Shown in pieces: positions 677 through 24,734 of a stretch of DNA of 64,000 nt. Each line of letters starts with the position of its first letter. The first letter of the stretch is position 1. The notes under the pieces are model-generated. The model saw only the letters and a program-made list of their open reading frames with translations. It searched no databases and was not told the DNA's origin. A program made the translations under genes and the position numbers. Origin of the DNA: Antedon mediterranea (lineage: Eukaryota > Echinodermata > Crinoidea > Comatulida > Antedonidae); NCBI RefSeq assembly GCF_964355755.1, contig NC_092679.1, positions 15,676,932 through 15,740,931 on the forward strand. Reading direction: 5' to 3'.

Positions 677-1404
677 GCTGGAATTTCTAAATTCTTTTGA
701 AAAAATGTTTTAATAGGAAAAAAGCAAGAGCACTTTTATGGAGATATATGTTATACATCATTACCTTTTAGTAATAAGAGTGCAACCAAAACCTAAACAC
801 TAAATTCCTCTGAGGCATTTTATACACATCGACTACATTCATACATTACAATTATTCTAACTATTCATTCTTAATATTAATTAATAATTAATTACAATCT
901 TCTGACTTCATCTTCATTCTTGTCTTCATCAGCTTGCTTTTAAACAGTCTGTACAAGCTGGCTAGATATACTAGGGAACTTCAAAGAATTAAATGCAAGA
1001 GGGGGACTCTAAGAAGCATGCATTCCAGTTTCCCCCTCCTCCTCCTCCTCCCCACCACCCCCTTCTTCATTCAACCCTTCCTCATTAAACTCACCCTCAT
1101 CGGGAACCCTCCGTAGGATAGAAGGTAACCATCCACTAAGACCCTGCAAAAAAGTCAAAAAAGAAATCTTGTCGTTTTCTGAAGACATTATTTGTTCATG
1201 CTCATTAATGAATGAATAAAAGCGTTTGCAAGTTTTGACGTTCGAAGCGGGAATGGGAAAGTGAAAAACAAGCTAATGAAGATGAAATCAGAAGAACTGT
1301 TCAAACTTTTGAAGAAAAAAATGGTGATATCTTAATATAGTTGCCAGAAGGTAGTATCATACGACAGAGGCTAACAAACATGATGCATTTACAGTAGATT
1401 CTGA

Positions 1405-1567
1405 GTACTGTATCTATTTCTGAAGTATCATAGGAATAATTGGTAATACAACATCACATGTATCAAGTAGTAACCTAATTCTTAACCTAACTTTACATGA
1501 TACAGGCAGCACATATGATGCTGTATTACCAAATATTCCTATGATACTTCAGAAATAGATAGTATGT
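1405..1567. repeat. Foldback (inverted repeat)
   Basis: Two arms of about 45 bp, at 1405-1450 and 1524-1567, are near-perfect reverse complements built on ATTTCTGAAGTATCATAGGA. A spacer of about 75 bp separates them. It looks like a small foldback or MITE; no coding content. Confidence 0.7.
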
Positions 1568-1945
1568 GCAGATACAGCACTGGGAATTGAGTGGTAATTA
1601 AATGATATTCACACACAAGATGGCAGTTAAAAGCTACAATGAAAAGAGTCGGTTTAAATAAAGTGAGCCCAGCTCGAAAAGGTCTAAAATTTGTTTGTAT
1701 TCAAAAAATGTGACTATAAATTTGACATCTACAGTAGCTGTAAAATCAATTTCTGTTGTAAAAATAGATTTAAATTAACATTACATATGTGGTTTATAAC
1801 TGTCTGGGAAGCCTTAAAAATGGTAACAAATAACACTCAATTACTGTATGCAATACAAATTTGCTTTATTCAAATAACTTGGTTGTATAATAATAACACT
1901 TGTATACATGGCTGTAAAGACTACAGAAATGCCCAATACTATGAA

Positions 1946-2018
1946 TTCAGCATTGGGAAGGCTTCAGCATTGGGAAGGCTTCAGCATTGGGAAGGCTTCA
2001 GCATTGGGAAGGCTTCAG
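1946..2018. repeat. 17-bp tandem repeat, about 4 copies
   Basis: Identical units of TTCAGCATTGGGAAGGC run head to tail. They generate a spurious open frame across 1691-2185. Confidence 0.9.
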
Positions 2019-2898
2019 CCTCTACAAGAAATTCCACAGTTGTGGTGAGGAGGTACATTGAAAAGTGTAATCATTCATCATGGGTTTTGTTTGCTGTGTG
2101 GTTTGCATCAAAACACTTGCAGTACACATTGTGTTCGACGCATCAATGTAGTGGCCGCATCATGGATGTATTTTTTTTAAATTGACAGTCAGTCATTCTG
2201 ACCAGTACTGTAGTAACCAATGCTATTATACCAATTAGTGTAAAACGTTCAATATTAAATCCTTTGCCTTTTGATTCCATGTAATACAAGTATTTCAATA
2301 GCAACAACTTTAAAAAGCATCAAATGAAAAACTGCAAAATCATTTTGTAAATTATTTGTTTAAGAAGAGGTGACGTGAAATGTACAAAGAATGTAATGAT
2401 GTCAAATGCAGGTGTGTCATTGTCACACATGCAGGCAACGGACAAAAGAAAAATGTCATTAATTTATTCAAGAATGAACAATTCATACTGTACCACTCAT
2501 ACTGTACACATGAACAAATTGGATAATATACCAAAATTGCACTAGAACTTTATCAATGTTGTTGTTAACTTCCTAATGATAAATTTTACTGCTATTCACA
2601 TAATTTAAAAAAAACTAGGGTGCACCTTGTTCGCAGTAAACTAAGAATTCTTAAACATCCACATAGGTTACACCCTGTACGTTCATGGAGCTTATAAATT
2701 GTGTACTTTAGCTACCCTGGTTAGTTGTATCGACTCTGCAATCAGAGCCTGGCGACAAATGTGTATGCCCAGTGGGCCACAAAAACTAATCGTTCGCATA
2801 CATCATTTAATTTTGAAAAATATGCCGATATAGAAGGTGTGCCTTATTGTCTGATGGTTCCTTCCTATGCTGCTACAGTATTTCACTTCAAACCTTAC

Positions 2899-3707
2899 AC
2901 TCACGTGTATAATGTTATAAACTCACGTGTATAAGGTTATGCACCCAGGTGTATAAGGTTATGCACTCAGGTGTATAAGGTTATACACTCAGGTGTATAA
3001 GGTTATACACCCAGGTGTATAAGGGTATGCACTCAGGTGTATAAGGTTATGCACCCAGGTGTATAAGGTTATGCACCCAGGTGTATAAGGTTATACACCC
3101 AGGTGTATAAGGGTATACACCCAGGTGTACAAGGGTATGCACTCAGGTGTATAAGGGTATGCACTCAGGTGTATAAGGTTATGCACCCAGGTGTATAAGG
3201 TTATACACTCAGGTGTATAAGGTTATACACCCATGTGTATAAGGTTATGCACCCAGGTGTATAAGGTTATACACTCAGGTGTATAAGGTTATACACTCAG
3301 GTGTATAAGGTTATACACTCAGGTGTATAAGGTTATACACGCAGGTGTATAAGGTTATACACTCAGGTGTATAAGGTTATACACTCAGGTGTATAAGGTT
3401 ATACACTCAGGTGTATAAGGTTATACACTCAGGTGTATAAGGTTATACACTCAGGTGTATAAGGTTATACACCCAGGTGTATAAGGGTATGCACTCAGGT
3501 GTATAAGGTTATACACCCAGGTGTATAAGGTTATGCACCCAGGTGTATAAGGTTATACACTCAGGTGTATAAGGTTATACACTCAGGTGTATAAGGTTAT
3601 ACACTCAAGTGTATAAGGGTATGCACCCAGGTGTATAAGGTTATACACTCAGGTGTATAAGGTTATGCACCCAAGTGTATAAGGTTAAACACTCAGGTGT
3701 ATAAGGT
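2899..3707. repeat. 22-bp minisatellite, about 36 copies
   Basis: Units containing GTATAAGGTTATACACTC alternate with a few variants (CACCC for CACTC, GGGTATGC for GGTTATAC). Each unit carries the small inverted repeat GTATAA..TTATAC, so single strands could form serial hairpins. There is no spacer, so it is not a CRISPR array. Confidence 0.95.
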
Positions 3708-4732
3708 CATTTTTGGGCTGAGGTTTGATATTCGAGTAAAAATATGGACTTATTGATTGCACGACATGATGCCAAAATGACACAGCACTGCATAGCATTT
3801 CCAATAATACTTAATTTTAGTAAAAGAATGTATTTAAATAAAAGAATAACTGTTATTGTTTGTGTCAACAAATCGTAAAATAAAAAATATACTCTATGTC
3901 GAAACCTAGACTAATTTTTATGGAATGTTATTGAATAAATTGTATTTCTCTAATATTTCACCCTTCTTTAGATATAAATATTAACAAATAGTTACAAGAC
4001 AGTCTACAGTTAATTACATCTATCAATGCAATGGAAATTAAATGCACATTTCAATTCATTGACAACTTTAAAATGGCTGACAGACGTATTTTAATTATAT
4101 TAAAATAAATTTTATGATAAAAAATTAAAAAATGAATTTTTTTGTTTCTTTTCGAATATACGTTATATTTCATTCAAATTATATATTAATTTTTAATAAT
4201 TTTATAGTAATAAACAACTATCAAAAAGTACAATTAACTAGTGGTTATTATTTTCAGGTTGATCTTCTGGAGACAAATTGGGATGGCACAACAAAAGCAT
4301 CTATATTCCATTTCAAATGTCAATTCAAACATTTTATTATCGTCTGAATAACACTGCCACTGACTATATTAGTAAAGCAGCCTTTGCGAATATCTATTGA
4401 ATATTCATTAAACCATATGAATATTCATATGAATATTTTAACTATTTAATATTCATCTTTATATAACACTTTACAAAATGACTAACACTAATACACTGAT
4501 GTATTACTTTTCCATTTCATGAATTTAACAAATTCCAGGAACTGTCGTTGTTAACAACAATGGAAAGAAATGGGAATACATTTCCTGACGGATATTTCCT
4601 GATTTTCCATTTTTAATATCTCCCACTCTGAGGAAATTCCACCAATCAAAGACAGAACTGGCTATATTTGCATACATCTATGGTGGGTGGGTTATGACAA
4701 TGATTTTTTTTAAGTAGAGAGGTAAGGATGGT

Positions 4733-7700
4733 TCAGATAGAGCCTACCTCCTCTTTCTTGTATGTAGGATGAATGCTCTGCATCAGTTCTTCAATCTTTA
4801 TCCGTCTAAATAATGCGCATAATAAACACAAAAGTAAAAGGAAGAGAAAAAAAATGAGTATGATTTATACAATATGTATTTTCATTGTTTAACTGTCTGA
4901 GATTTTGTATAAGTACTGACTTTCAGTTCAACAAAATTAAATGCATACATACATGATACATTAATAAAAATGTTGAAATTAGAAAGTACATTTTATATGA
5001 ACAGATGTGCAGGCGAGTGCTGAGGCATTGGGTTAGGAAATTGCATACTACTTTTTTTGTAGCTTCCAATAGTTAAAAAAAACAAGTCATCTATTTAATA
5101 GAGCATAGGAATATCTTGTTAAAAGCTTGCTTGGGATCTGTCCCAATTTTGTCTAACTAATAGATTAAATTCAGCTTTATTTAACCACCACCGAGGCCCA
5201 GGTCAATATGGTTGTTCCACTTTCTTATGACGTGTACTTATTCATGCCAAAACAAGCCTACAACCTTGATGTGGATTCAACATAACATTTTTAATAGTAA
5301 ATCTAGGCTACAGTACAAACAAAAACATAATGATTTTAAATGTTATAGCCTGTATATACGTCGATCGCATCAATTAAATGACATGCATACTCACTTAGCC
5401 TGCAGTCCACCTCCAGGGGGAAACTGGCCAATATCCTCTTCTTTAATGCCATGAAGAACATAAGGTATATCAACTTCTTCTTTATTTCCTGCATTGTCAA
5501 ATAGTTCTGAAAGAGACAAAAAAATAATCAAAAGGCTGTCTATGTAGATCTTTGTACATTTTTTACAAAGACAAGACAGACATCAGTGTTTCAATACACT
5601 AGCTATTGGGCATATCAGAAACACTATAAAGGTCTGTGGGATCAATTGATTAAAATGCCAAATATAGCATATGAAATACAACCAGTAACAACAACACATG
5701 CATGCTTACGATTTGTAGATGAAAGGCCTAGCCTAATGCTTGGTTCCCACTAGGAACACAAAGACATAACGCAACGTTAGTGTGTTGACCAATCATAAGT
5801 GATGTTGCTTGTCATTGGTCAACATGCTTGCGTTATGTTTACGTCCTTGTCCTTCCTTGTGGGAACCAATTTCTTTACTCCTGTATCTGCGTGGCAGCAT
5901 GTTAGGCATTGGACTGATCATGGAATTGAGAGTTTGAGACCAATGCTTGTCACATTGCTTGTGTCCTTTACTTATGTTTGCCTCTCTCCAACCAGGTGTA
6001 AATTATGTACCGGACCGTTGACGTAATAGCTAAGAGCGCTAACTGGCTCAACCCAGGGGAACCTGAGCAGTGTCCAGAGAAAAAAAACCGACATTAAAAT
6101 ATGTCGAAAAGGGCTAAAAATGCCGAGGTCTCTAGCGTTGGAGGGCCACTTAGGATTCCTAAACCAGGGGCCTTACACTTCTGCGTTACTATGCCACTGT
6201 ACCTGAAAGGGGCAAACACAATTGCGCCGATTACTACTACTACCTGCATAATTATGAGAGCTGAAAGATTGACTTTATTATTATAACTATAACCAAGACA
6301 ACATGCAATATATTAATATATATATAAATATAATATTAAGTAGGTAAAGGATTTGTCTTTTTAATTAGACTACAGTGTATGAGCTTGTAAATGTACATTT
6401 TTCTAGCCTAGATATATACATCTTGTACACAGTATTAGTATTAAACATGATGCCAAATAACTGCTCACATTGACAGACAGAATATCTGATTTTACATAAC
6501 TAAAGCTACAACAAGTAGTACTTTTATTTTTTCTATTTAATGTTAAATCATATATTTGCCAGTTCCCATGTTATTGTGCTGATGTTAAAGCATCACACTG
6601 CTTAACATTGACAACTAAATTGATGTAGAATGTATTTTTGTATTAAAATCTTCAAATTGACATTTAAAAAGTCATAATTGGAATTGCCTTCTAAAGCAGA
6701 ACATTGTAAAATGTAATTTATTTCAAACATAGACATACATTTTGTAAAAATAAGGATACATGGTCCTATACAAATTTTAATATTGAATGAATATTGAATT
6801 GCATACAAAAGCAAGAATTACAGTACAGTAATGTCTTGATATAACAGGTTATGATAATGATAATATTGGTTGACAATAATGTTGATATGGATGTGGTGGT
6901 GATAATGGCTGGACGATGACAATAATGTTGCTGTAATGTCGCAATGACAATTCTAAAAATAGTAGTGATAATGATATTGTTGTTAATTACAAGATTTCAA
7001 TTTATGATGATGATAAAGTTTATGAAAATGGTGATATACTGTGCAACATACACTAATTTTTTTTTTATCACAACAAGCACATTTGGAACGATTGAGGACA
7101 ACCACCGACATCACTTGATGCCAAAGTATAAATGTGTATAAAAGCAGCAACTATCTGAATAGGTTTAAGTAACATAGTATAAAACTGACTCCAAATAATG
7201 AGGCATCATTCCTGATGATGATGATCAAATAAAGATGGAAACGTTGAATCATGGTTTGCCTCTCATTATTTGGAGTCATTTTTATATTAAAGATGTACTG
7301 TCTCCCAAAAACCGAAAACAAATTTCACTTATAAAATGACAAAATAAATGGTTAAATTCAACCAACCAATTTCACTATTTTTTTTCTTAAAATCTTTAAA
7401 TTACAGTTTTTTTGGTAAATACATTTTCTTGTCGATCCAATTTTTTTGGTCAAAGTGGATAAATATTAGGTGACGTTAAAATGGCATATTAAAAAAAAAA
7501 ATGTGTAAGAATTATTTTTTCAGGGGGGGACAATACATCTTTAAACATAATCAGTTAAAATAGGTTTGTTAGACTTTTTTGGCTTCTCTAGTAACCAGCG
7601 TGTAACCTCACCTTTTATCTTTTTTTCTAACCATTCATCCAATTCTTTGTCTTTTTGAATAGCTTCTTCAGAGACTTCTGGGATAGCTTTTAGCGTTATT

Positions 7701-10700
7701 AATGTTATGCTCATGTTATCTCGGCTACCCTGTACAACAATACAATAACAATTTTAAATATTATATTATTAACATCATACATTATTTATAATTGTAACAA
7801 CATCTATCTTACCTTAGGAAAGAAGGTGTTAACAAATATAATACTGATATCGCAAGCGAGTGCTAATAGCTTTTCAGTAAATTACTTATTATCTTATAAT
7901 CATACATAATTACAGTCAATATTATTGTTTGTTTAAATTATTTATGTGTTGTTTTTCAAAATAGTATCATTTTTGTATATATTTTTTGTTGCTTATTTAT
8001 GAAATTTATTCTACAAAAAGTTATCATTTTTGTATATTTTATATAATTTGTTTATTTATGTGTTGTTTTTCAATAATTGTATAATTTTTGTATATATTTT
8101 TTGTTGCTTATTTATGAAATTTGTTTTACAAAATGTTATTGTTATCATTTTCGTATATATATTTCTTTGTTTATTTATGTAATTTATTTTACAAAATGTT
8201 ATCATTTTTGTAATTTGTAATACTGGCTAGCTTGCGAGTTATATAACTTTATTGTCTATTAAGTCCCAGACCTTATGTCTGTCAAATAAATGAATAACAT
8301 ATTGCTTGTACAATAAAAAAAATCACACTTTATAATCAAAATAATACAGTATAAATAGAGATACCTTCTACAGTATGTATATCAATGCAACCTGTTAATT
8401 CACCTACAGTATTAAGGGGACACCTTCGAAAAAACAAAGTGTTCCTTTAATACGGTTGACCCCTGAATAGAGGTTGACCAAAGTGTAAAAAAATCAAAAA
8501 TTAATATATTGCAGTTCATTTCACAGGGAGGTGTCCCCTTAATAGAGGTGTCCACTAAATATGGTTCCAAAGGAGAGGTTTTACTGTATCAAATAGAAAT
8601 GTGTTCCTTTCTTTTTACACAGCGAGTTCAATCAAATATCAACTGCTATAAGACTGGTTTAGTGTTGCGTGTGTGTAAGAGGCAATAAACATTAAGATAA
8701 GGATGAATCGGTCAGTGAACATGTTTTGTCCAGTTGAAACGGTCAAACATGTTTATAGCGCTGCAGTGGCTATTTCATTTAAATTGATCACCTGAATCGT
8801 AATAAAGTGGCCATTTTTAATGTAATCAACATATGAATTAAAAGTAACACATCAAAATATGAGATCTTTTTACTCTATTTTGCTGTTTTTGTGATGTTGT
8901 ACATCATTTTCATACTGTATAATTATAATCCTGTATGATTTTTCTCATTCTAACAGATTTTCTCATCTTTTTTATCATTTCCAATTACCATATATCCTCT
9001 GGTATAATCTCACCTTCCTAAAACACAACATTGGGCCTACTTTGGGGATAGTATAGCCAGATGAACCATTGTCGGACATAAAGTAGGGGAGGGATTACAC
9101 CAGAGGATATATAGAATTAATGTTCTATGCCGGATGTGTTTATATAATATAAACGAATACATTTATGGAAGTCTTTACCCTTAGGTCTGGATCTACAACT
9201 GTAGACCCAAAAAAATAGATACTGTAAGTAAGGCCAAAAGCAGGAGATAGTCAGCATAAAGGTCTCTGCCTTAAAAAGGTCAGTGGCCTGACTTTGATTG
9301 GGTTTAAGCCATTACCCTTAGGTCTATTTCCACTGTAGACCCAAAAAAATAGACGAGACCAAAAGCAGGATAGCAGCATAAAAGGTCAGTGGCCTGACTT
9401 TGATTGGGTTTAAGCCTTTACCCTTAGGTCTATTTCCACTGTAGACCCAAAAAAATAGACGAGACCAAAAGCAGGATAGCAGCATAAAAGGTCAGTGGCA
9501 CGACTTTGATTGGGTTTGTTTGACAATCAGTAACAATTGTCCTAGTACTGCACTTCCAAATTGCTACAAGTATTTCTAGATATTGCACAGTACTGTACAT
9601 TATTAATTATATCGGTAATAATATAGAAACAGGTTTTTATGATTCATATACAGTAATTCACAAGATTCTTAAAAGATTGGCCATAACGTGTCATTGACCT
9701 CTCAAATCAATGTCTTCCGTCTTCACAGTGCAATTCAGAATGTCTCATCACTATCAAATTCAGTTAAAAATTAACATAGCTTCTCTAAACTTAAGTGTTC
9801 TTAAGGATTTAGAAGACAAGCTGTAATTTCACGATGTAAAGCTTTGTATGTAAAGTGATGCAATGTCTTGCATTTATTATTTATAAAAATTTGAATTATA
9901 ATTATGTATGCTGCAATAACAAATAATAAATAAGAATAAATTTTTTTTTTAAATTCACTGAAGAATGAATGGGAGGGTGGGGAGGATTTGTCCCCTAAGG
10001 AGGGCTTCTTATATTGTTAAAAACGATACATTACCTTAAATAGGCATGTGTCTACAACTTGACTGCAGATGTCTTGAAGGTCATGAGAAATTTTAAGCCT
10101 ATCCAATATAAACTCACACGCATCCTCATTCTTCATGACATCCCAAATGCCGTCGCAAGCCAACACAATGAACTGGTCTTGGTCGCTGCGTTCCCGTACA
10201 GTTACTGTCGGTTCCGGAGACACCAGTTGTTCAATAGCTGGTTTATCGCGGACTAATTTATAATCGTAATCCCCCAATGCCCGGGAAACAGCCAGCGATC
10301 CGTTTACTCGTTGCAAGTAGACCTGACCGCCGGCTTTGACTATGCGCTCCATCTCTTCTGGATTTCCGGGCTTATGATCTTGAGTACTGTATACAGGCTC
10401 CCCATTTTGGCAGAGAACACCCCTAGAATCACCACAGTTAATGAAAAAGTAGTGCGTGGGAGAGATTAGTACACCTACAGCTGTAGAGCCACTTCTTTCG
10501 TTTCCGTGAACGGTTTCAGTCCAATTACAGATTTTCGCATCAATATTTAAAAATCCCGTCCTTATACCTTTTACAATGTTATCTATCGTTGGTTCTAGTT
10601 TTTCGACTTGTTGGTCAGTCCCTTTAAAATCGGAATTATTTAAAATTTCGTCCAATAGATTTTCGGCCGAATAACGCGCAACCTTCGGCCCCGCATGACC

Positions 10701-19509: not shown

Positions 19510-19589
19510 CAGGGGCGCAGCCAGCAAAGAATTAAAGGTGGGGTCAACCAATATGTGAGTATTTTGCGAGCGAAGCGAGCAACCATGGG

Positions 19590-19737
19590 CTGGGGGCCAG
19601 GGGGCCGCCAAAGGCCCCCGTTTGGGGTCCAGGGGGCCAGGGGGCCGCCAAAGGCCCCCGTTTGGGGTCCAGGGGGCCAGGGGGCCGCCAAAGGCCCCCG
19701 TTTGGGGTCCAGGGGGCCAGGGGGCGAAGCCCCCTGG
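19590..19737. repeat. GC-rich 40-bp tandem repeat in the hAT left arm
   Basis: Just over three units of 40 bp carry GGGGGCCAGGGGGCCGCC and AAAGGCCCCCGTTTGGGG. It follows GCGAGCGAAGCGAGC. The GC content is far above the surroundings, with self-complementary and G-rich strands. It creates overlapping spurious frames. Confidence 0.9.
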
Positions 19738-20661
19738 AAGCTTTGGCGGTCTAGGGCAATCTAGATCATTTGAATCGGTTTACGCACACACAATAGACTG
19801 TGGGCTACCGTAACCCCCCCCCCCCCCCCCTGGGGATTTTATGACCCATACATTTTTGGAAACCTCACACATATAGGTTTTCAAATCAGGTTGTCTGCAC
19901 ATTGCGCAGTGGTGCGTAAACCGATGAGGGCGCTTTTTCCAAAATGGCCGCCAAATTTAATAAAATATTAAATATATTGATAAAACAGTAATTTATATGC
20001 TAAAATTAACTTGTTTTTTAATTGTTCTGTATTGAAATAATGTGTGGTCAGGTCATGGTATATGTTTGTATTCCGAAAAGTCAATATAGAGGGCGCATTT
20101 CAAAATGGCCGTCGAAAATCATAAAACTTAACAAAATTGAAGTAATTACTAGAAATGATTATATAAACAATCAGAAAAATGTCAGAATGTCATTTTACCA
20201 TTCAATAATTTAACTGGTACTGACATTATTTGATTAAACTAATAAAATAATATTATTATTATTAAAATAATACAAAAACTTCTATCAAACAAATTAGTTG
20301 ATGCATGACATTCAACTTTAAACCAATCAGAACACAGATAGCAGTGTAGTAGTCTAGTTGATCAGTTGTATGAAACCAGTCTAGTCTATATAACATTGAG
20401 CTAAATTATCGAAGAAAATTGTGCTTTTTCAACAAAAAAGTTAATTCATAGTAAGTATTACAAGCAATTTGCTCTCCTAGTACAGTACATGGTGCAAAAT
20501 GTGGACTAGCCTAGGCCTCGGAGAACTTGGTAAAACTGCACAGTTCTGGCTTAACTATATGGATCGAGTTTGGCTTATCCTTCAATTTCAAAGAGCAACT
20601 AAGAAAACAATTTTGATTTGCATTTAGCTAGCCTACAAAGAATGTGTAGTCTGTTTTTTAG

Positions 20662-22737
20662 CTACGACCACCAAAACTATGCTAGATATACAATGGTGTA
20701 TTTCCTGTCTCTCCTAAACATATCAGAGACACATCCCGGAGCAGAGGAGCTCTTGCGACACAATGGTTTCAGCGTTAAACGATCACAAATTCCGATGTCG
20801 AGAAATGCTGTTGACATCACAATTGAACAAACTATCAACCGTCACGCAAAGTGCCATGGTGGAATCATAGGATTCAGCAGGAACTATTCGGCATATCATA
20901 GGTGGTGCACGACAAGACACAGTAGGGCTGGTTACCAGCAAGCCACAATGGAAATGGCAGACATGGATAACATGGAATCAACTTCACACAAGGGCTTGAA
21001 GTCCTCACACATCATCAACAGTGAACAAGATACTTGCAAGGTTCTAGCAGCATTTCATAATTTTGTAAATCCTTTTGTTGTTGAAAACAAGAACGTCCTC
21101 TACTGTCTGTCATCAGGTGCACCAGTATCAGATGAGATCGAACATGATCTCCTCCAGGCTGATAATATTGGAAAACAGGCTTACGACAAATTTGTTACGC
21201 AACGACTTGTTGAAGGCACAGTAAGTTTTCATCATCCAATCAAGAAGTGTAAACTAAAGACATTTGTACAACTTGCCAAATCCTGTAAGATCTCGGGACA
21301 GTCAAAGAAGACCAAAGAAGTAAAAGCTGAAAGAAGTGTATTTGGTCAGCTTGTACTTTTAGCAATGAAGCATGACATTAGTATAGAGAGGGTGCTTAGT
21401 TTCTCATTGGGACCTGTTCCATGGGCACTTGCAACGGCTGATGGTGTTCCAGTGAAGACAGACAAGGCAAAGCTTATGCATGCATTGGTAGGCGAATCGA
21501 ACACAATAGAAAGGCCGGCTGGAGAAACCACATATATTGTTCACTGAATGGCTCTGCTGGAAGCACAGATGGCTTTGCCTGATACATTTGGAGACCTGGC
21601 AGAGAGTATATTTGGACAGCTGCCTAAGGTAAAACGTGTGGACTTTGTAACTGATACCTACCTCCCACTATCAATCAAAGGAATTGAAAGGGCTAGAAGA
21701 GGTTCTTCTAAATCCCATATAATTAAAGGAGTCAAGACTAAAGTGCCACGAGACTGGAAATCGTTTCTGTCAAGCGATGACAATAAGATGACACTAATTT
21801 CTACTAAGTGAATGGAAAAAGAATAAATATGCACCAAATCTTCATGGAAGAGAAGTTGTATTTGGCTATACGAATAAATGCCTAAGTCTGAAGAGCAATG
21901 ATGGCCGAGAAACTATGTCAGAGTTATCGTCAACACAGGAAGAGGCTCACGAAGTTGATTCTCCACTGTCTGCAAATTGCCAGAAATTCATCATCCAATT
22001 CTACCATAATCATTCGATCTCCAGACACAGATGTCTTCATTCTTTTGCTTCATCACACCCAGGAACTGACTCAAACAATACTATTTGATACAGGTGTTGG
22101 CAATAAAAGACGTCTTGTAGATGTGCATAAAGTCATAAGTGATGTGGGAAATGATGTGTGTCATGCCCTTCCCGCATTACATGCATTCAGTTGTTGTGAC
22201 ACAACCAGTGCATTTGTTCGTAAGGGGAAACTACTACCTTTGAAGATCCTCAAACAGCACCAGGAATTTCTTGGTGCATTTCTGACTCTTGGCCGATCAT
22301 TGGAAATTGCAGATGAAACTCATGAAAGCTTGGAGCATTTTGTGTGCCGTCTTTACAACACTAAATCTACTCGTAACTGACATTAACACTTTGCGACATG
22401 ATAAATTTCTGGAAAGATTTAGTGTCAAGCCAGGTGCAATACTTTCGACCTATGATGGCATGGATATGAGCCTCCCTCCACCTTGCCGAGATGCTCTAAA
22501 AATGCATGTTAAAAGATCTAATTATCAAGCCGTACCAAATATCCCTCAACCAGACGGGCATGGTGTATTCAAAATGAAAAGTTGGACTTGAAGTGGACGG
22601 AAGGTGATATGATGCCACATGAGCTGGTTGACGTATTGGTAGAGGAACAGGAAGAGGAGGATGAGGAGGAGGATGATGATGAGCAAACTGAATTTAACAA
22701 CTTGATGGACATTTTTTTTTACACGGAAGAAGACTAG
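20662..22737 (+). pseudogene. Broken transposon gene, PIN/XPG-nuclease-like
   Basis: A multi-frame reading continues across the element. The first block starts after a splice-like acceptor at 20660-20661 with YDHQNYARY, then IEQTINRHAK, GGIIGFSRNYSAYHRWCTTR and CLSSGAP. The frame meets a stop (TGA at 21545-21547), then resumes in the same frame at LLEAQMAL. Frameshifts follow near 21805, 21945, 22365 and 22570. The middle has QEEAH, IIRSPDTDVFILLLHH and FSCCDTTSAFVRKGK, resembling the acidic and Gly-Cys-Asp motifs of XPG/FEN1-type PIN nucleases. The tail is very acidic (EEQEEEDEEEDDDE) and ends at a TAG at 22737. I recall similar multicopy uncharacterised proteins in marine invertebrates; the nuclease role is inference. 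EEAD has become EEAH and GCD has become CCD. The N-terminal part is missing. Confidence 0.75.
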
Positions 22738-22774
22738 ATAATCTTGTTATTGAAACTTTTATTGTAAATAGTAA

Positions 22775-23411
22775 GGAATGGCATTTCCAGTTACTTTTCC
22801 ATACAACATTCTACTAGAGCAACTATAAAACCACATGTTCTGAAAAATTTGCAACAATTTCCAAATGTATACTACCAGTAGTTAGAGAGATATGACAAAA
22901 CCAGGTCAAAAGTCATAAAGGTCATAAATGTCACTTCCGGTAATTTTTTGACAAAATGTTTCATTAGAGCAAATAGAAATATGCATATTGTAAACAATTT
23001 GAGATCATTTACAAGTGTCTATCATGTAAAGTCAATGTTATGTCTTTAAAATATAGAAAAAAAACCAATAGTGCACTTTTATTAGAATTGTTGGCAGCCA
23101 TTTTGACAAAACGGTCAGAAATGGCATTCCCAGTCCCCTTTACATAAAACTCTCCATTAGAGCAAGTATAAAACCACATGTTCCAAACAATTTGCGACAA
23201 ATTCCAAATGTGTACTACCAGTAGTTATAGAGATATGACAAAACCGGGTCAAAGGTCAGAGTGACAAAAATGTCATTTCCGGTCAAATTTTTACAAAACT
23301 TTTCATTAGAGCAAATAGAAATGTGCTTACTGTAAACAATTTGAGACCATTTATAAGTCTCTACCATGAGTGGTTGCCAAGATAGAGGCACCTGAGCCTA
23401 TGGGCAGCCAT
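22775..23411. repeat. Two diverged ~320-bp direct repeats near the inner element's right end
   Basis: Copy one (22775-23110) and copy two (23118-23411) share in order: GGCATTTCCAGT/GGCATTCCCAGT, AACCACATGTTC, TACTACCAGTAGTTA, ATATGACAAAACC, CATTAGAGCAAATAGAAAT and GGCAGCCATTTTGA. They form subterminal repeats, possibly transposase-binding. Confidence 0.8.
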
Positions 23412-24049
23412 TTTGAAAACGCGCCCTCACGGGAATACGCACCACTGCGCAATGTGCAGACAACCTGATTTTAGTTCGTATATGGGTAGGGTTAAAAAAA
23501 ATACTGGTCCCGAAAAATCCCCAGGGGGGGGGAGGGTCCCGTGTTTGAGCCCACAGTCTACAAATATGACAATGTTAACACTAATAAACTGAAACAAAGA
23601 AAACAAAAAACAACTCTCATTTTCATTACAGAACATTTTTATATTCCAGGCTGCCACAGACAAACACTTTTTTTCTTGCTTGTTTGTTGATTTGTGTAGA
23701 GAGGCTGTAAACTCAGAGGAGGAATTATTTGAATTCCTCCCTTTTCACCAATACAAAAGTTGCATGAAATGAACGTAGAGATGCAAAAGTTTGAAAAAAG
23801 AAATTAGAATGATAGCATGGAGGGAGTGATATTATTAAATGAGAACCGTAATGTTAGAGTTCATACACTATGCAAGTCCAAGAAGCTATCTTGGCTCCGT
23901 GTGTATGTGAGACGCTTATCATACCCAGTACATACAATATTTTGTTTAAAAATATACCTATTTTGTTCGAATGTATAGTATAGGTGATAGCTTATACATA
24001 ATTGTAATAACTAACTTCTAAATTATTATCATACATTTTACGTTAGTTA

Positions 24050-24590
24050 CTATAAGGGCGCTCTTGACATCGCGTGATGCATCTTTAAACATAAGTTTGG
24101 AACATTCTTCTTGGCTTGGAGACAGAATTCGCGAATGACATTCTCTGTATTAATGTTCATGTTAAAGTGTATGTTCATGAGGCACAATCCCGAAAGCTGC
24201 TCATAAGACATGTGATTTCCCAAACAGGTTTTCGTTCTCCATAAAGTCGAAAAACTCCGCTCAGTTTAAGCAGACGTTACGGGCATAGGCCTACGCGATT
24301 AGAAGAAGTGCACACACATTCGGGAACACATCTGGATCCGCTAATTTTACACAGTCGCTTCCATCACTGAAGCTCGGAATGAAGATGTTCGTGTCTTGGC
24401 AGATCATCGTACCAAATTCAAGTTCCTTGAAGACTTCTTCAACATTACACTTCATGATAGACTCGGGTGCTACGCCAAATATTTTAAAGCATGGCCTGTT
24501 ATCGGCAGAAAAACGGGTTTTTAACTCGGTTTGTAATCAAGTTGATTTGGTAATACTGCTCGGTAGTAATCTTCCACAGTATCTCCAGGA
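24050..24590 (-). pseudogene. hAT transposase C-terminal remnant
   Basis: Minus-strand fragments read DTVEDYYRAVLPNQL, then (shifted) LKTRFSADNRPCFKIFG, then after a stop ERSFSTLWRTKTCL, MSYEQLSGLCLMNIHF and ENVIREF, ending at a TAG at 24050-24052. ERSFS..L..K followed by LSGL.L..IH is the hAT dimerisation region, closest to ZMYM1/zinc-finger MYM-like hATs. At least one frameshift and one stop are present, and the N-terminal zinc finger and catalytic acidic residues are deleted. Confidence 0.8.
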
Positions 24591-24734
24591 TGATTTGATC
24601 TGTATTGTTGTCTCCGGTTTTTATTGATTTTTTCTATAAAAAAAAGGGGGGGTCAGGACCCCCGTGACCCCCCCACTGGCTGCGCCCCTGCAAATAACTC
24701 CTTACATGACTCACTTCAACTGATGGCAGGCCTC

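Follow-up and report, generated by a model that had tools for sequence, protein, structure and literature searches.

A nuclease-coding remnant in a crinoid genome lies in a probable deletion derivative of an AcademX-like transposon

What moves a transposon whose only recognizable gene resembles a DNA repair nuclease? The question is raised by the window, a 64,000-nucleotide stretch of DNA from the crinoid Antedon mediterranea. An earlier note, made from these letters alone, pointed to positions 20662-22737 as the gene of a possibly undescribed transposon family, coding for an XPG-like nuclease between terminal inverted repeats (TIRs) and showing no DDE transposase. That segment proves to be a coding remnant, smaller than the element that holds it.

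The complete inner mobile element occupies window positions 19794-23560 (3767 bp). Its TIR is a perfect 13 bp: TAGACTGTGGGCT at the element start (19794-19806, plus strand) and AGCCCACAGTCTA at the element end (23548-23560, minus strand). Longer, imperfect subterminal repeats adjoin it: on the left, an inverted repeat with a C-rich tract (19807-19944, plus strand), and on the right, its counterpart at 23411-23547 (minus strand), the two being complementary over about 80%. The trinucleotide CAA adjoins the element at either end, forming an unstranded 3-bp target-site duplication (TSD) at 19791-19793 and 23561-23563. A site with a single CAA was found elsewhere. The two flanks, joined with one CAA into a 190-base query, are identical at 190 of 190 bases to 21 other places in the genome, and 99-100% identical at all matches listed (at least 40 genome places). 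These matches establish a precise insertion in which three bases were duplicated. The copy does sit between TIRs, as first described. The matches also show that the insertion hit one member of an outer element family that is very young and present in many copies.

The outer element spans 19510-24690, with TIR CAGGGGCGCAGCCAG and the 5-bp TSD CAAAT, and resembles a hAT element. Around the insertion site, 40 or more copies are 99-100% identical; the outer element was amplified very recently. Separately, 14 nt of the left flank (ATCGGTTTACGCAC, 19774-19787) form a perfect inverted match to part of the inner subterminal repeat (19912-19925), possibly through chance, possibly as a trace of target choice.

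The coding remnant itself (20521-22737, plus strand) is degenerate, and comprises the end of a DDE domain together with the XPG nuclease domain. It is frameshifted, a TGA interrupts it at 21545-21547, and nothing remains of the part that precedes about residue 604 of the intact protein; its reading frame closes at TAG (22735-22737). The following features all lie on the plus strand, with residues numbered as in the intact relative L019. The junction of a 2.9-kb internal deletion, which removed the N-terminus and two of three DDE acids, falls at 20518-20521. The last DDE catalytic acid remains, in the DITIEQ D...E motif (D704 and E708; 20813-20827). The region IEQTINRHAK/GGIIGFSRN (about 20822-20886), called conserved in the earlier note, contains E708, the third DDE acid, in its IEQTINRHAK part. 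At 21542-21547 the first XPG acid, D947, has become His and is followed by a TGA stop: two base changes (GACGGA to CACTGA) lost the acid and gained the stop. Further XPG motifs follow: D984..K992..R999 (21653-21700), which resembles FEN1 D86/K93/R100; E1086-A-D1088 (21942-21950), damaged here by a small deletion, with EEA(H) at about 21942; D1114-T-D1116 (SPDTDV, 22024-22032), with SPDTDVFILL at about 22018-22048; and GCD, D1172, and K1182, which mark the helix-turn-helix region (22192-22230), with G1170 changed to Cys and CDTTSAF..GK at about 22195-22230. Every motif first reported is present where it was reported. The remaining 3' non-coding part (22738-23410) contains a direct repeat of about 256 bp in two copies, roughly 83% identical.

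What does this remnant encode? Pfam scans with the window and L019 proteins, taken singly, gave no significant match. Across lineages, D947, D984, E1086, D1088, D1114, D1116, and D1172 are kept in 11-12 of 12, as are K992, R999, G1170, and K1182. Their order is that of FEN1 D34, D86, K93, R100, E158/E160, D179/D181, and D233. An AlphaFold2 model of the XPG domain from an intact relative (pLDDT 86, pTM 0.85) matches the structures of Exo1 (Z 13.7), XRN2 (13.4), FEN1 (13.0), and XPG (11.6); the best 50 structure matches listed (Z 13.7-10.5) are Exo1, FEN1, XRN, XPG, Rad2, GEN1, T5 FEN, and their kin. Foldseek returned seven matches below 1e-3 for the same model, all to XRN/Rat1. A profile search of PDB sequences placed Exo1 first, a weak match (E 0.13) colinear at two motifs; a PDB sequence search with L019 alone found no match. 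By the modelled fold of the relative and the order of the metal-binding acids, the coding remnant encodes an XPG/FEN1-type nuclease domain, and the nuclease reading of the earlier note was borne out.

The terminus of the inner element occurs at 27 places in the genome. An exact 3-bp TSD borders each of the nine retrieved copies with both ends, window included: CAA in the window, and CTA, TTG, TTT, TTA, TAT, CTA, AAA, and ATA elsewhere. Such regularity far exceeds what chance would give. The relative L019, 6.7 kb long, has a 1360-aa open reading frame in which a DDE fold precedes the nuclease; a Cys-rich exon lies upstream of this frame, and the element's own outermost 3' terminus is lost. With L019 as reference, ten copies, the window's among them, carry an identical 2.9-kb internal deletion (element positions of about 728-3624 are absent), and a fragment, L031, is joined at almost the same point. 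Moreover, seven of these ten, again including the window copy, have in common both the D947 to His change and the stop. This implies that the dead derivative itself multiplied, which in turn points to mobilization of the deletion copies in trans. The window copy is a non-autonomous, internally deleted one, from a deletion derivative that moved recently.

These observations bear directly on the idea of a transposon driven by an XPG/PIN-like nuclease only, with no DDE enzyme. In favor of this idea, the window copy and nine others hold just the XPG part and the end of the upstream domain. Yet the short copies share one junction, and seven share a mutated first XPG acid and a stop, so they were not moved by a nuclease of their own; full-length members in the same genome, moreover, show a DDE fold with conserved acids. 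The nuclease-only reading is therefore very improbable, and was rejected because internal deletion accounts for the missing domain. The original observation that no DDE transposase is visible stands for the window copy, from which the deletion took D291 and D459, but does not extend to its full-length relatives.

In those relatives, the region that precedes the XPG domain keeps D291/N292/D294, D459, H488, and D704/E708; of these, D291/D294, D459, and D704/E708 are invariant or nearly so across lineages. In the AlphaFold2 model of this region (pLDDT 79), D291 lies within a strand, D459 directly follows another strand farther along, and E708 sits in a helix beyond a long helical insertion. In a VIA-align search the best 27 rows are all DDE transposases or recombinases, including ISCth4 (Z 8.6), Hermes (7.7), RAG1 (7.1), Transib (6.5), and Metnase (4.4); after them, Z drops to 3.8 with the first row of another kind. 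The match is moderate, since Z values up to 8.6 lie within the range possible for common arrangements, and Foldseek alone found no significant match for the DDE half. Because the match list is uniform and the acids are conserved, the modelled upstream domain is likely a DDE transposase. The Pfam domain DUF6589 overlaps it in six of 11 members (best 2.7e-8).

How widespread is the fusion? The window's XPG fragment has at least 150 scored matching places in the 354-Mb genome, among 418 candidates. Twelve further loci with relatives were fetched, mostly with long open reading frames (664-1555 aa in the main set); most are about 23-33% identical to the L019 protein. Inverted repeats starting 5'-TAG, together with an exact 3-bp TSD, border the elements at L032, L033, L035, L037, L039, L040, L041, L042, and L043 (eight of 11 loci plus L043, for a chance expectation of about 0.3 over the 11 loci tested). 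L036 has TIRs and no detected TSD; only the 5' end of L034 is seen inside the fetched piece; and neither ends nor TSD were found for L038. Complete members measure 6.7-8.1 kb, and their termini differ by family (TAGACTGTGGGCT, TAGGCCATCGGGTGAA, and others). XPG-motif members mostly have no Pfam family over the XPG domain. A CXC-type C-terminal tail is present in L033, L037, L039, L040, and L050 (E 0.003-0.009 against Pfam TCR, where scored), and absent from L019. A scan of viral contigs revealed no relatives. With nine of 12 distant loci bounded in this way, the protein family is tied to mobile elements, as had been surmised, and by the very check that the earlier note proposed.

Nucleases of the XPG family are commonplace in hosts as repair genes, and the window copy is degenerate; one might thus see in it a gene of the host's XPG family, or cargo that an unrelated transposon captured and passively carries along. 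This is extremely improbable. The DDE and XPG domains share a single reading frame in many divergent lineages, and all seven XPG acids are conserved at about 30% overall identity, which argues for a selected role in the element. The captured-gene reading was rejected on this persistence of the fusion.

Two loci merit separate description. L043 (2506-6360) is a foldback element with ends TAGACTAGGCTATG and TSD AAT, whose 1.69-kb inverted arms are 97% identical and each carry an XPG gene fragment; about ten similar pairs occur among the genome matches to the XPG fragment. L050 (3506-7282) has a 1259-aa open reading frame with DUF6589 similarity, XPG motifs, and the CXC Cys-rich tail. Its protein is about 24% identical to L019, and no TIRs were found within the fetched piece.

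To which group do these elements belong? Kojima, in 2020, is said to have assigned the AcademX nuclease to the XPG type, and AcademX elements are described in Repbase with a Cys-rich (Cys8) motif. Within the Academ superfamily, TSDs are 3-4 bp for AcademX and 9-10 bp for AcademH, lengths linked to the encoded nuclease and helicase, respectively (PMC10045372). Academ is counted among the DDD/E superfamilies (PMC9587614). In the elements described here, 3-bp TSDs border nine of nine copies with both ends in the window's family and nine distant loci; the nuclease is evident from fold matches and conserved acids; the DDD/E transposase is found, with moderate scores, in full-length relatives and is deleted from the window copy; and the perfect 13-bp TIR is accompanied by imperfect subterminal repeats. 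The features of AcademH were not found: the TSD is 3 bp, and L019 has no detected helicase. As DDE transposase, nuclease, and 3-bp TSD are published AcademX traits, the known group fits better than a new class. Membership judged on these traits is well supported, though not proven; the window element is very probably an AcademX-like cut-and-paste transposon that has undergone an internal deletion, a placement based on published traits. It represents a new family of an already known kind of transposon. The label "undescribed" therefore holds at most at the family level, and not for the combination of DDE transposase, nuclease, and 3-4 bp TSD.

Might the 5'-TAG ends and 3-bp TSDs instead mark a separate, undescribed DDE+XPG superfamily, not homologous to Academ at that level? 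The likeness to Academ is one of described traits; members have no Pfam match or only weak DUF6589 similarity; and direct profile comparison of XPG members with a helicase-bearing DUF6589 gene of the same genome gave no match. Against this, the whole combination has already been published for AcademX (PMC10045372, PMC9587614), and bivalve Academ consensus elements are comparable in length (mean 5565 bp; PMC10294476). A separate superfamily is accordingly unlikely. Literature searches on DUF6589, and on Academ with XPG and transposase, found nothing; one on Academ with Cys8 found no relevant paper.

That DUF6589 gene belongs to a pair of 99%-identical units of about 6.5 kb, L048 (about 1385-8864) and L049. 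In each, a DUF6589 gene that includes a C2H2 finger converges with a RecQ-like helicase gene (Helicase_C). They are candidate AcademH elements; element ends and 8-10 bp TSDs were sought around the units and not found.

A mechanism can be proposed for the AcademX-like element. The transposase would bind the TIRs, excise the element, and insert it at target positions staggered by 3 bp. We infer a division of labor. Cleavage at the TIRs would most likely fall to the DDE domain, as would attachment of the 3' ends to the target strands at points offset by 3 bp, and filling of the resulting gaps would yield the TSD. The XPG domain would probably act on the branched DNA that arises, for example by trimming a flap where the element meets donor or target DNA. 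Proteins of full-length elements would move the deletion copies in trans. More speculatively, the XPG domain might open hairpins, if the DDE domain makes them like hAT and RAG. An extended proposal, that the TAG-ended elements form their own superfamily in which XPG opens hairpins or flaps from a RAG/hAT-like DDE enzyme as their own "Artemis," is decidedly unlikely.

Together, these results give an identity, that of transposase-nuclease fusions, to abundant uncharacterized proteins with XPG motifs, and connect DUF6589, a domain to which Pfam assigns no function, with a DDE transposase fold. Moreover, the fusion raises a testable question: what part does a flap nuclease play in cut-and-paste transposition?

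FEN1, EXO1, XPG, and XRN share the fold and the seven-carboxylate active site with this family; those proteins are stand-alone host enzymes, whereas the domain here is fused to a transposase. The hAT (Hermes), RAG1/Transib, and MuDR/IS256 (ISCth4) enzymes likewise have an RNase H-like DDE domain with a helical insertion, but none is fused to an XPG nuclease. Their TSDs are 8 bp (hAT), 5 bp (Transib/RAG), and 8-9 bp (MuDR), compared with 3 bp here. AcademH, for which a helicase and TSDs of 9-10 bp are described, differs from the window element, with its nuclease and 3-bp TSDs; DUF6589 similarity is common to the helicase-bearing L048/L049 and some XPG members. AcademX resembles these elements in its DDD/E transposase, encoded nuclease, 3-bp TSDs, TIRs, and large size, a likeness drawn from description; what sets this genome apart are the families themselves, their termini, and the derivative with the 2.9-kb deletion.
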